From Bacillus sp. FJAT-18017 (GTDB lineage: Bacteria; Bacillota; Bacilli; Bacillales; Cytobacillaceae), in the NCBI RefSeq assembly GCF_001278805.1, contig NZ_CP012602.1, forward strand, positions 3,321,501 to 3,385,500: a stretch of 64,000 nucleotides of DNA, in the 5' to 3' direction. The notes below the pieces were generated by a model. It was not told where the DNA came from. It searched no databases and was given only the letters and a program-made list of their open reading frames with translations. Positions 6,090-44,600 of the stretch are shown piece by piece (position 1 is the stretch's first letter; each line of letters begins with the position of its first letter). The position numbers and the translations under genes were made by a program.

Positions 6090-6288
6090 TGAATGACATT
6101 TCGCTATCTCCGGAACCCTGAGTTGTCATTCATCTGCTTTATGAATGACATTTCACTGCCTCGGTAACCTTGAGTTGTGATTCATCCGCTTTTTGAATGA
6201 CATTTCGCTGCCTCGGTAACCCTGTTTTGTCATTCATCGGCTATTTGAATGATATTTCGCTGCCTCGGTAACCTTGTTTTGTCATTCA
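6090..6288. repeat. Tandem palindromic repeat array A: four 43-bp units, 52-bp period
   Basis: Four copies of a 43-bp unit start at 6090, 6142, 6194 and 6246, exactly 52 bp apart, with 9-bp linkers. Each unit starts with TGAATGA and ends with a mirrored arm (TGTCATTCA in most). The core is CG(C)TGCCTCGGTAACC-like and nearly constant within the array. The array fills most of the 536-bp convergent gap between the rqcH terminator and pyrE. No coding potential is apparent. The arms resemble arrays B (28.46 kb) and C (44.43 kb). Function is unknown. Confidence 0.9.
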
Positions 6289-6372
6289 AAGAACATATTT
6301 AATGGCCTTTTACTTACTTATGCCCTAATAAGCACCCGAACCCCTACTGTTCGCAAGGCGTCTAGGCGAAAT

Positions 6373-6426
6373 AAAAAGAAGGCCAACCAACGACAGTGAA
6401 TTGTCGCCAGCTGACCTCTCTTCTTC
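6373..6426 (-). terminator. Terminator of the pyrimidine operon
   Basis: On the minus strand, just beyond the pyrE stop, a long imperfect stem (GCGACA...TGTCGT in its centre, AAGA...TCTT outside) is followed by TTTTTATT. This is the expected end of the pyr transcript. The opposing rqcH transcript ends about 430 bp away. Confidence 0.8.
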
Positions 6427-6427
6427 G

Positions 6428-7063
6428 TTAACTCAACCTAGCAAGGCTCCAGCTTGCGGGGTCTTGCTTCCATTCCAGAAGAGCCTCCATATCGGATCCG
6501 GAAATATATCCTTTCTCTTTTGCTGTTTCAATAAGGTCCGAGAAGCCGGTCAATGCGAGAGCTTTCAAATTCGCATTAGACAAAAGCTGCTTTCCTTTAT
6601 CCAAACCATATGTAAAAATAGCAACGGCACCCAGCACTTCAGCACCTGCCTCACGCAATGCGTCAGCGGCAGTAATGACACTGCCCCCAGTTGAAATAAG
6701 ATCTTCAACAATGACAACTTTTTGCCCACTCAGCACTTTACCTTCAATTTGATTGCCTTTTCCATGACCTTTGGCACTGCTGCGCACATAGCACATTGGC
6801 AAATCCAGTTTTGCACTAACCCATGCAGCATGCGGAATACCTGCAGTCGCAGTACCGGCAATGACCTCAACTTCAGGAAAATGTTCGCGTATTAACTCAC
6901 CAAGGCCACTGGCAATTTCCCTCCGAACCTCAGGATAAGACATGGTCAGCCGGTTGTCACAATAAATGGGCGAACGCATTCCAGAAGACCATGTATACGG
7001 GTTCTGAGGACTTAACGAAACCGCACTGATTTCCAATAATAGTTCTGCAATTCTCTTACTCAT
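6428..7063 (-). CDS. pyrE: Orotate phosphoribosyltransferase
   Basis: A 211-residue type I phosphoribosyltransferase that joins orotate to PRPP to give OMP, the fifth step of UMP synthesis. The PRPP-binding loop [13 protein letters not shown] is present, as is the N-terminal SPIYCDNR segment typical of PyrE. Length equals the family norm. It is the last gene of the pyr operon and overlaps pyrF by four bases (ATGA), suggesting translational coupling. A strong terminator follows. Confidence 0.97.
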
Positions 7064-7779
7064 ACAATCGCTCCTTTCCAGGCTTCAAGCCAGGTTTGAT
7101 AGGCCTTGTAAGGATTTTCAGCCCTTGTGATCGGCCTTCCTACAACAATGGCCGAAATTTGGTTGGACCGGGCAAATTCCGGTGTCGCAACCCGCTTTTG
7201 ATCCTGTACTTCATCAGAAGAAAGGCGGATACCTGGTGTTACCGTTAAAAAGTCTTTACCAAGCATTTTCCTTATTCCAGCTGCTTCCCAGGCAGAACAG
7301 ACAACACCGTCTAGGCCAGATTGCTTTGCCAAATTTGCATAATGCTGAACTGACTCTTCCAAGCTAACCGGAATCAGCTGCTGATTTCGCATGTTTTCTT
7401 CGGTAGTGCTTGTCAGCTGCGTGACAGCGATGCAGGCAGGCCGAGCTTCGCCTGCTGGTGTCCCAGCCTCCAATCCTTCCAAAGCCGCTTCCATCATTTC
7501 CATGCCCCCTGCAGCATGGACATTGACCAGGTTACAGCCAAGCCCGCCAAGTACCTTCATTGAACTTTTAACCGTATTAGGGATGTCATGAAGCTTCAAA
7601 TCGAGGAAAATTCTATGTCCCAATTCTTTCATCCTATAAACAACTGCGGGGCCTTCCTTATAAAAAAGCTCCATTCCAACCTTTAAGAAAAGCTCATCTT
7701 CCGGGAAGTTTTCCAGGAATTCCTCCACTTCCTTTATCCCTGCAAAATCAAGCGCGAGAATTAACGGGTTGTCTTGCAT
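7060..7779 (-). CDS. pyrF: Orotidine 5'-phosphate decarboxylase
   Basis: A 239-residue protein from the chosen start, catalysing OMP to UMP. The active-site motif [11 protein letters not shown] with its Lys and Asp residues is clear. The ATG at 7779 is preceded by GGGGAAGGAG at good spacing and gives the usual N-terminus (NPLILALDF). An upstream in-frame ATG at 7854 adds 25 residues unlike the family and lacks support. The real start lies 32 bp inside the end of pyrD, so the two genes overlap out of frame. Confidence 0.96.
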
Positions 7780-41946: not shown

Positions 41947-42102
41947 GCATTCCACCTCCGACCAAGCTGGTGCCCATATCTTTTTTAATCGAAAACAACG
42001 GCACGATAGTTTCATGCCGTCGTTTCTGCAAACAGCTTTTTAACCAGATTTCAATGGAAATATTATAGCACACAAACTCCAGCCATTTAGATATATTTCC
42101 TG

Positions 42103-43011
42103 CTATTTTCTGCCGATTATTTCAACTTCTGTTTCCATCTTAATATCATATGATTCCAGAATGACATCCTTGACATGCTGAATCAGGGCAAGGACATCCT
42201 CTGCCGTTGCATTGCCATCATTCACAATGAAATTCCCATGCATTTCAGAAATTTTCGCTCCGCCTATCCGGTGCCCTTTTAATCCCGCAACCTCAATTAG
42301 TCTCCCAGCATAATTAGGGAGCGGATTCCGGAAGATACTTCCCGCGCACGGGTAATTCCATGGTTGAGTTTCTTTTCGGTAATCTTTATTCTTCTGAAGT
42401 TCTTTAACGATGGTCTCTTTTTCTCCCTGTTCGAGCTGAAAGACTGCTTCGACAACGATTCCCGGCTGTTTCTTTTGCAATACGGAGGAACGATAGGAAA
42501 ATTCAAGTTCCTCATTCGAAAGCCACTCCATGCTTCCATCCTCAAATAGGATATGGGCTTTCTTGAGGATTTTGCTGATATCCGACCCGTGAGCTCCCGC
42601 ATTCATATATACCGCACCCCCGACCGAACCCGGGATGCCGCCTGCAAACGCTAAACCTTTTAACCCTTTCCTGCTTATGGAAGTTGCCATTGAAACAAGC
42701 GATTGCCCGCCGCCCGCAGTTACCTCAGTGCCGTTAATTGCCAGCTTATCAAGACCAGGACCGAGTTTCACAACAATACCTTCTATTCCTTTATCGGAAA
42801 CAAGCAGGTTCGAACCTCTCCCTATCGCCCTCCAGGGGACATTGTGATTCCGGACAATTTCCATCGTCTTGAACAGGTTCTCCACGGAAGATGGCTCGAC
42901 AAACAAATCTGCAGGCCCGCCAATTTTTATTGTAGTGTGGCCTGCCAGTGGTTCCATATTCTTCACCTTGCCTACACCGGCAGATTCCAATTCTCTTTTC
43001 AGCTCATCCAT
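42103..43011 (-). CDS. murB: UDP-N-acetylenolpyruvoylglucosamine reductase
   Basis: A 302-residue FAD enzyme of the short type II class that reduces the enolpyruvyl group to give UDP-MurNAc. The FAD motif [35 protein letters not shown] (type II loop), GSIFRNP with the catalytic Ser, and the late Glu region are all present. Start ATG at 43011 has GGGAGG upstream. It follows murG by 91 bp. Confidence 0.97.
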
Positions 43012-43102
43012 AAGATCCTCCCTATCTTTGCGTAATAGAGTTATTGCATACTATGCAATGTAATTCATTGGGTTACAGCCCATCTAATGCCTATATCCTA
43101 TC

Positions 43103-44200
43103 TTATTTTTGGGAAACAAGCTCCCTCATGACCTTGTAAAGCCTTTCGGCGGCATCCTGGACCCCAAGTTTACGTGCTTCCTTTGCCATGGCTGTTAATT
43201 TTTCTTTATTCAATGTGATGCTATCAATGGTGCTGACCAGCTTTTTGCCTGACAGTTCTTTTTCTGCCAGAAGTACTGCCGCCCCCTTATCACTAAGGGA
43301 GAGCGCATTTTTTTCCTGATGGTTATTGGTTACATACGGACTAGGGATCAGGATAGCCGGGATACCAAGCGAAGTCAGCTCTGCCAGGGTGGTTGCACCT
43401 GCGCGTGACACGACCAAATCAATGCCTGCTAATACATCGGGCATGTTATGGATAAATGGTTTAATAATTACGTTGTCAGGGCTGCCAAGCAGCTCTGCTT
43501 CCTTCCTAACATCCTCATAGTGGACATCGCCTGTGACATACAGAACCTGATATGGTTTTGAAGCAAATTCTCCAAGGGATTGTACAACCGCCTCATTGAT
43601 AGGACGAGCGCCCCTGCTGCCTCCGAAAATAAGAACTGCAGGCATTCCGAGCTTGAGACCAGTCGAAAGGCGCCCTTTTATTCCGTCGCGCCCTAAAACC
43701 TCCGATGCTCTTGGGTTTCCAGTGAACACAACCTTCTCTTTAGGAAAAAAGCTGGCAGCTTCCTCAAAGCAGATTGCTATTTTGTTCACATACCGGCTTA
43801 GGAATTTATTTGTAAGCCCTGGTATACTGTTTTGTTCGTGGATCACTGTAGGTATCTTTAGTTTGGATGCTGCATAAACGACCGGCCCACACACGTAGCC
43901 GCCAGTACCAATCACGATATCCGGTTTGAATTCTTTAAGGATTGTTTTACTTTTTTGGACACCCGTTAGGAATCTCAATACTGTTTTAATATTTTCAAAG
44001 GATAGCTTTCTTTTAAAGCCTGTTATATGTATAGATGCAAATGGAATGTTCTCCCTGGGAACGAGTGTGCTTTCAAGTCCTTTTTCTGTGCCGATATAAA
44101 GGAATTCTGCATCAGGATCCTTTTTTTGAATTTCTCGAACTAGTGCAAGTGCCGGATAAATATGTCCACCGGTACCACCGCCGCTAATGGCGATTTTCAT
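43103..44200 (-). CDS. murG: UDP-GlcNAc:lipid I N-acetylglucosaminyltransferase MurG
   Basis: A 365-residue GT-B glycosyltransferase that converts lipid I to lipid II at the inner membrane face. Signature loops [14 protein letters not shown] at the start, [24 protein letters not shown] and [10 protein letters not shown] are present. It is separated from spoVE by an unusual 528-bp gap holding repeat array C, so it likely has its own promoter. Confidence 0.97.
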
Positions 44201-44430
44201 GTTTCCACCTCTTTTTTATATCTTTCAATGCAATGCCAGCAGGGCCAATAAAAAGCACCCACTCTATTTACCCCCATTCTACTATACTTTAAACCAGGAA
44301 ACATCGAAAAACACTAACGTTTCTATGGAATCACTGTAGTTTTTTTCCTAATGCCTTACCGACCTTAATTCCTGCGGTAGCAATGGTAGTGGATAAGTAG
44401 GGTACTTAAAGTTTCAGTTCGGCTTTTTCA

Positions 44431-44600
44431 TTGGTGACATTTTGAGATAATCTCCAAAGCAAAATATCATCAATAGGACTCCTTGGCAACATTTTGAACC
44501 AATTTCAAAAGCAAAATGTAACCAATAAGTATTCTTGATGACGTTTTGACTTATTTTCCACACCAAAATGTAACTTATAAACCTTCCTTGATAACACCTT
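44431..44600. repeat. Tandem palindromic repeat array C: three 43-bp units, 52-bp period
   Basis: Units begin at 44431, 44483 and 44535, exactly 52 bp apart and 43 bp long; a decayed fourth may start near 44587. Units open with TTGGTGACATTTTGA-like sequence and close with AAAATGTAACCAA-like sequence. The inner arm (TGACATTTTGA) equals that of array B, but the outer four bases change from TGAA/TTCA to TTGG/CCAA, keeping the pairing. The array occupies the gap between spoVE and murG. Confidence 0.85.

Follow-up and report, generated by a model that had tools for sequence, protein, structure and literature searches.

The window analyzed here, a 64,000-nucleotide stretch of Bacillus sp. FJAT-18017 (contig NZ_CP012602.1, positions 3,321,501 to 3,385,500), contains three short arrays of tandem repeats, designated A, B and C, which are members of the known class of 52-nt satellites. 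When the repeat was re-phased, it was found to consist of a 27-bp inverted site, TGTCNTTCAT-N7-ATGAANGACA, and a 25-bp linker, and the arrays are probably phased operators for a putative dimeric architectural protein, placed mostly beyond transcription terminators. An earlier reading of the same DNA (the original prediction) had counted 11 units at the three loci, with starts 52 bp apart in seven of eight intervals and 51 bp apart in the other; the count and the pitch were both confirmed from the starts of the 45-mer units given below. The strand of array A is that of the model match, a convention that is arbitrary.

6089..6289, minus strand: array A, four type I units of 45 bp with a 7-bp gap, starting at 6089, 6141, 6193 and 6245 (pitch 52, 52, 52).
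6124..6150, no strand assigned: 27-bp dyad site 1 of array A, TGTCATTCAT-N7-ATGAATGACA; sites 2 and 3 lie at 6176-6202 and 6228-6254.
28455..28654, minus strand: array B, four type I units, starting at 28455, 28506, 28558 and 28610 (pitch 51, 52, 52).
28541..28567, no strand assigned: 27-bp dyad site of array B; the others lie at 28490-28515 (6-bp gap) and 28593-28619.
44430..44578, minus strand: array C, three diverged type II units, starting at 44430, 44482 and 44534 (pitch 52, 52), with dyad sites at 44465-44491 and 44517-44543.

Tandem Repeats Finder returned a period of 52 for array A (score 278) and array B (score 281); array C, too diverged, was not picked up. Against the repeat model (described below), the units of array C scored 41.3, 19.7 and 37.6 bits, two of the three having been in the model alignment. 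The unit length of 43 bp given earlier is better stated as 45 bp plus a 7-bp gap, and the constant geometry described with it stands. Over the border between two units, the arms together make up the 27-bp dyad, and what had been taken for a variable core is the 25-bp linker. The claim that only the arms are shared did not hold, as the units of A and B align gap-free with the rest of the genome family; nor did that of common arms at all three loci, array C carrying the type II arms TGTNACCAAT/ATTGGTNACA in the same 10-7-10-25 layout as the other arrays. Within the window, 11 copies of TGACATTT were counted where 4.0 would be expected, a number that none of 100 shuffles reached. Exact TGTC-N19-GACA was found three times, always within A and B, with an expectation of 0.65; two of 100 shuffles reached three, and the signature is only modest within the window alone. 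A degenerate 27-bp pattern built from the arms matched six sites in the window, all in the three arrays, with 0.05 expected; since the pattern was derived from these same families, this result is consistency rather than discovery.

The 52-nt tandem repeats described by Subirana and Messeguer have a constant size and a variable sequence and occur in ~30% of the Bacillus species studied, as species-specific families with no sequence conserved among them; short signals and their reverse are often found within one repeat, and a nucleoid protein or small RNAs were suggested for them (PMC8161180). The arrays analyzed here resemble that class in their period of 51-53, their non-coding location and short length, the presence of several families of equal length per genome, their constant size with changing letters, and the occurrence of short signals together with their reverse inside a single repeat. 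The published search was set to at least four repeats per array; A and B have four units and C three.

Because two of the published consensus sequences, B. coagulans 8_52_18 and B. litoralis 42_52_9, resemble type I, the order was searched with TGTCNTTCAT-N7-ATGAANGACA. With at most one mismatch, 55 of the 397 genomes, belonging to 30 of the 136 genera, carried the site, as against 2 genomes for the reversed control; by our own count, 39 of the 55 carriers have at least two matches and 16 a single one. When the gap was freed to 0-30 and no mismatch was allowed, 24 of 28 chosen carriers matched, and among the matches listed the gap was 7 except for one each of 5, 6, 8 and 10. In 63 loci of the order, in which the half-sites were located separately, the gap between half-sites was 7 in 198 of 211 cases, and the linker was 25 in 218 of 252, 24 in 23 and 26 in 6. 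Because these loci were themselves retrieved with such sites, the gap of the retrieving site is biased, whereas the linker is not. One dyad site in 30 genera, and TGTC-N19-GACA in unrelated families (see below), are unlike the published account of species-specific letters without conservation. The shared site corrects that description and does not exclude membership in the class.

Between neighboring units (83 pairs), identity was 0.94 in the arms, 0.61 in the gap and 0.66 in the linker, and the arms are therefore the part that is kept. Matched changes (67 v 51, inflated by three arrays with one-base shifts) did not decide between the 27-bp dyad and a 45-mer with inverted ends as the natural unit; the greater rigidity of the 7-bp gap, compared with the linker, favors the dyad. 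Among the consensus sequences, 20 of the 27 published ones and 18 of our own 30 have a significant short-gap dyad (gap 3-12, p<=0.05 against 200 shuffles).

The outer letters of the site were followed across families. Of 256 inverted four-letter pairs at a gap of 17-21, TGTC..GACA was the commonest in 46 family consensus sequences (21 published and 25 our own; m3-13 and thermoamylovorans 5_52_21, as near duplicates, alcalophilus 11 and 41, and both kochii families were left out). It was exact in nine of them, eight at gap 19, and was found in 19 when one mismatch was allowed; over 30 shuffles of the consensus sequences TGTC averaged 3.5, and the best of the 256 pairs reached at most 12. Tandem pairs of TGTC-N19-GACA with a linker of 20-50 were present in 76 of 397 genomes and 33 of 136 genera of the order, with at least two pairs in 70 genomes, against nine genomes with one pair each in the reversed control (our own count). 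With a linker of 10-40, 16 of 398 genomes of the class matched (reversed control, six with one each), of which, by eye, three have one chance-like match and G572 looks like a short coding repeat. G010 has 516 tandem pairs and G034 has 357, of sites with inner letters unlike type I.

Among the arrays listed, linkers were 24-26 and the pitch 52, except for a linker of 35 and a pitch of 62 in G502 and G707, two genomes from a single different family within the class (G502:C26:29315-29527, G502:C27:37996-38146 and G707:C81:68902-69114); G707 also has one pair with a linker of 24. No half-turn linker class was seen among the matches listed, which were the first places of each genome. The difference in pitch is apparently one full helical turn, 52 or 62 bp corresponding to 5 or 6 turns. 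Repeats of other periods were also observed. Arrays of 129-130 bp (L172:440-1423 in G005, L207:12468-12981 and L208:5298-5655 in the genome of Bacillus sp. FJAT-18017, G000) hold CTAGT/ACTAG-type inverted pieces, 130 bp being 2.5 x 52 bp or 12.5 turns, and non-coding tandem repeats of 20-21 bp, or two helical turns, occur in the sample of the latter genome (e.g. L200:773-888 and L197:7384-7496).

The repeat model was built from 25 units, including two of array C. It gave 150 matches on both strands of the 5.27-Mb genome, all of which were scored, and 128 units were laid out by hand at 34 places, five of them single units. Successive unit starts within the listed places were 52 apart in 78 of 94 cases and 51 apart in nine. 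None of the 34 places lies within a called gene, and a single place shares 8 bp with the end of a gene; the gene caller used covers 70% of the DNA and replaced a first caller covering 53%. Two arm sets share the same layout in this genome, the main type I (ATGAATGACA/TGTCATTCAT) and type II (ATTGGTNACA/TGTNACCAAT). Among 61 genomes (G000 and relatives), six matched the model, strongly in G000, G005 and G007 and with one weak match each in the other three, and no match was obtained in five genomes of the same genus. The genome-wide search that had been called for found the family at 34 places, and the view of one system, divergent in sequence and conserved in geometry, is supported, the system being genome-wide and patchy in relatives. 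A plasmid search with array B as query gave no match.

Most 52-bp-class arrays in the sampled DNA carry letters other than type I. In 464 kb of the G000 genome (the window and 20 evenly spaced stretches), 24 non-coding tandem repeats were found, 12 of them with a period of 51-53; the corresponding numbers are 5 of 13 in G005 and 6 of 10 in G001 (200 kb each), the last having arrays of the class though no type I match. Per 100 kb sampled, G034 has four such arrays and G012 three; none was seen in 100-kb samples of G018, G029, G031, G040, G042 and G045, a sample size that can miss them. At the same gap, different families were found in different species. In the fbpA-pyrE gap, G000 has type I and G007 a type II-like array with the 52-bp period, whereas G005 has no array; the spoVE-murG gap holds type II in G000 and G007 and a GGTCGTTGA..TCAACGACC 52-bp array in G005; and the sigG-ylmC gap holds type I in G000 and G007, one of the 129-130-bp arrays standing in place of array B in G005. 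In the spoVE-murG gap of G007 (L170:17015-18176), extra dispersed repeat-like pieces with AAGCGCAAGCGCC.. and CCGAAGCTT.. motifs flank array C; they are not in the corresponding gap of G000. The type I array of G005 at L118:4999-5719 has 14 units, 12 of them consecutive with equal model score and a consensus with 98% matches, and is a very recent tandem expansion; the genes next to it are related to the neighbors of array L095 in G000.

In the window, array A is flanked by an fbpA/rqcH-like gene (plus strand) and pyrE (minus strand), array B by sigG and ylmC/ymxH, and array C by spoVE and murG. With these neighbors, the host is an endospore former. Terminator-like hairpins were located at the following positions:

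5891..5960, plus strand: terminator-like hairpin with a T-run, downstream of the fbpA/rqcH-like gene and before array A (T-run +47, -26.0 kcal/mol).
6376..6427, minus strand: terminator-like hairpin downstream of pyrE, on the opposite flank of array A (T-run +52, -25.2 kcal/mol).
44700..44728, minus strand: terminator-like hairpin after spoVE, before array C (T-run +28, -9.0 kcal/mol).

Over the genome, a terminator-like hairpin stands between gene and array at 25 of 38 gene-end flanks; none was found at 11, where some gaps are too short to hold one, and two were too far to scan. The 34 places comprise 22 co-directional, 8 convergent and 4 divergent contexts, compared with 101, 22 and 33, respectively, among gaps of at least 150 bp. 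The comparison of convergent with divergent places was not significant (p=0.12), p=0.01 being reached only without three divergent cases of doubtful gene calls, and no conclusion was drawn from gene context. Array orientation agrees with that of the flanking genes at 16 of the 22 co-directional places (p=0.052), which might point to some connection with transcription.

This agreement in orientation is one of the points in favor of a structured RNA, the RNA reading of Subirana and Messeguer, in which the arrays would be transcribed, each unit would fold into a 10-bp stem and a 7-nt loop, and the product would act as a small RNA, a sponge or a 3' stabilizer. The significant short-gap dyads and the arms, which stay palindromic though different between families, also point in this direction, and one report describes transcription of the repeats in B. 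coagulans (PMC8625621). However, in the two homogeneous families tested, the two halves of the site were found to vary independently. At the variable fifth position, the within-genome association of the halves gave a Cochran-Mantel-Haenszel (CMH) odds ratio of 0.92 (z -0.14), loci without a genome label each being treated as their own group. When the halves were re-paired, complementarity in the order family was 0.926 within sites and 0.923 re-paired (z 0.94 within genome, 0.69 within array), and in the type I family of G000 (74 sites) 0.895 and 0.896 (z -0.26 and -0.44). Thus, no compensatory stem changes were seen by CMH or re-pairing in the two homogeneous families tested. G.U pairs were not favored over A.C in the families tested (27 v 32 and 21 v 21; in transcript orientation, 23 v 18), terminators precede the array at the flanks counted above, and a change of pitch by one helical turn has no obvious RNA reason. 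The hairpin reading, initially favored for its 10-bp stem and 7-nt loop, was dropped after the strand and independence tests, and a structured RNA repeat, which the original prediction had offered, is now considered quite unlikely. Because the halves vary independently and G.U is not favored, the evidence on balance speaks for double-stranded sites bound by a putative dimer. Of the Rfam families, only a T-box and a PyrR site reached the gathering score in the window, and no array matched; both are ordinary regulatory RNAs:

17627-17771, minus strand: PyrR binding site, RF00515.
23786-24019, minus strand: T-box leader, RF00230.

A neutral or selfish satellite would explain the arrays by slippage and gene conversion spreading palindromic repeats, with 52 bp set by the amplification mechanism and not by a bound protein. 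The recent expansion in G005, the different families held by sister species at the same gap and the patchy distribution agree with it, yet the arms are kept while gap and linker decay, identical half-sites with the same gap turn up across 30 genera, and TGTC is found at a fixed 19-bp gap in unrelated families; this explanation is regarded as unlikely. The 10-7-10 layout also resembles core sites of the tyrosine-recombinase type, inverted arms around a 7-bp overlap, and recombination between them could expand and shrink arrays whose copy number does vary between species. Tyrosine-type recombination needs matching overlaps, but the gap was identical in only 10% of the 83 neighbor pairs, and no such gene family recurs among 318 open reading frames (ORFs) near the sites, as judged by eye from their clusters. 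Recombinase sites are accordingly disfavored and appear very improbable.

Mobilization of a repetitive extragenic palindromic (REP)-like element by a REP-associated tyrosine transposase (RAYT) had also been put forward, together with a check of whether RAYT genes track the arrays. The units are intergenic palindromes and RAYT-like genes exist in the genome, one of them ~4.5 kb from an array; tracking was nevertheless absent. All 8 genus members have PF01797, as do 30 of 37 genomes (G000 and relatives) and 7 of 8 further genomes, and five of the eight PF01797-bearing genus members are without this arm family. PF01797 genes of 178-298 aa were found in G018, G031, G040 and G045 with no array in 100 kb of each (a sample that can miss one), whereas G010, with its 516 tandem site pairs, gave no PF01797 match. 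The three RAYT loci examined with their flanks are not flanked by the 52-bp element and carry an inverted GGGGTCAGACCCC repeat of their own. With RAYT-like genes lacking arrays in the samples, arrays lacking PF01797, and a REP proper to the RAYT loci, a RAYT partner was not supported, and a RAYT-mobilized origin is hardly credible. At L141:2844-4009, L145:2435-3802 and L150:2464-3736, RAYT-like PF01797 genes lie between inverted GGGGTCAGACCCC..GTGGAC repeats, which are a separate REP-like element of the genus.

Several known systems share part of this design. Bacterial interspersed mosaic elements (BIMEs) and REPs of enterobacteria are likewise clustered intergenic palindromes near gene 3' ends; the arrays differ in their fixed head-to-tail pitch, their much larger unit and the failure of RAYT to track them, and no REP tag was seen in the 52-bp units, no search aimed at REP tags having been made. 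Clustered regularly interspaced short palindromic repeats (CRISPR) are similar in alternating a conserved, partly palindromic piece, here of 27 bp, with variable DNA of fixed length, here 25 bp, but the linkers of neighbors, at 0.66 identity, are diverged copies and not unique spacers, and a genome holds tens of arrays. Phased operators bound cooperatively by dimeric proteins have inverted half-sites, a fixed inner gap and whole-turn spacing, and the independently varying half-sites around a fixed gap observed here fit that description; unlike them, the arrays comprise hundreds of sites per genome, with inner letters that vary between families of one genome. The dyad site in many genera, tandem TGTC-N19-GACA in families with unrelated inner letters, the gap/linker layout, the independence of the half-sites and the 62-bp pitch are apparently new: the last three do not figure in the available parts of the published 52-nt account, and a literature search on the arm letters returned no title on such repeats among the matches listed.

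In the operator model, each repeat would provide one dyad binding site, with 10-bp half-sites around a 7-bp gap, and a 25-bp linker, the outer letters of the site being TGTC-N19-GACA in many families. A dimeric DNA-binding protein would sit on each 27-bp site, and a pitch of 52 bp, or 5 turns of 10.4 bp (62 bp being 6), would put neighboring dimers on the same face of the helix. We infer that such dimers touch one another cooperatively and have an architectural role, in that they would coat, bend or bridge non-coding DNA lying mostly beyond transcription terminators. As the binding specificity of the protein or of its paralogues changes, the inner letters may change along with it, while the spacing and TGTC/GACA would stay.

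Several observations weigh against this model. No significant short-gap dyad was found in 7 of 27 published and 12 of 30 of our own consensus sequences. TGTC..GACA was absent at gap 17-21, even with one mismatch, from 27 of the 46, and four of the six published consensus sequences that were left out have no significant stem, which makes the 19 of 46 somewhat flattering. The 62-bp pitch is known from two genomes of one family, and arrays of period 130 and 20-21 coexist with the 52-bp class. When mixed families were pooled, complementarity within sites was 0.729 against 0.676 re-paired (z 3.26); this may stem from the several arm families per genome. Differing arm families in one genome require relaxed specificity or several proteins. 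Moreover, no partner protein was recognized among the 318 ORFs (from G000, G005, G007 and the order loci, clustered); the clusters listed, judged by eye without a family-library scan, resembled common transporter ATPases and metabolic genes. Among the three readings offered in the original prediction, a nucleoid-organizing site still fits best, though with no partner gene found it is not proven.

Taken more broadly, it is tentatively suggested that the 52-nt satellites of Bacilli may be one system of dyad operators in helical phase, often of the form TGTC-N19-GACA. They would serve a rapidly evolving architectural protein, or a small family of such proteins, assembling at 5 or 6 turns per dimer in non-coding DNA beyond terminators, which might make them a bacterial counterpart of a sequence-guided chromatin satellite. 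The 52-nt satellites have been a puzzle of fixed size, reportedly without shared sequence, and the shared dyad, the independent half-sites and the apparent whole-turn jump in pitch make that puzzle directly testable. If the protein exists, many Bacilli would have a nucleoid or insulation system that is still without a name.

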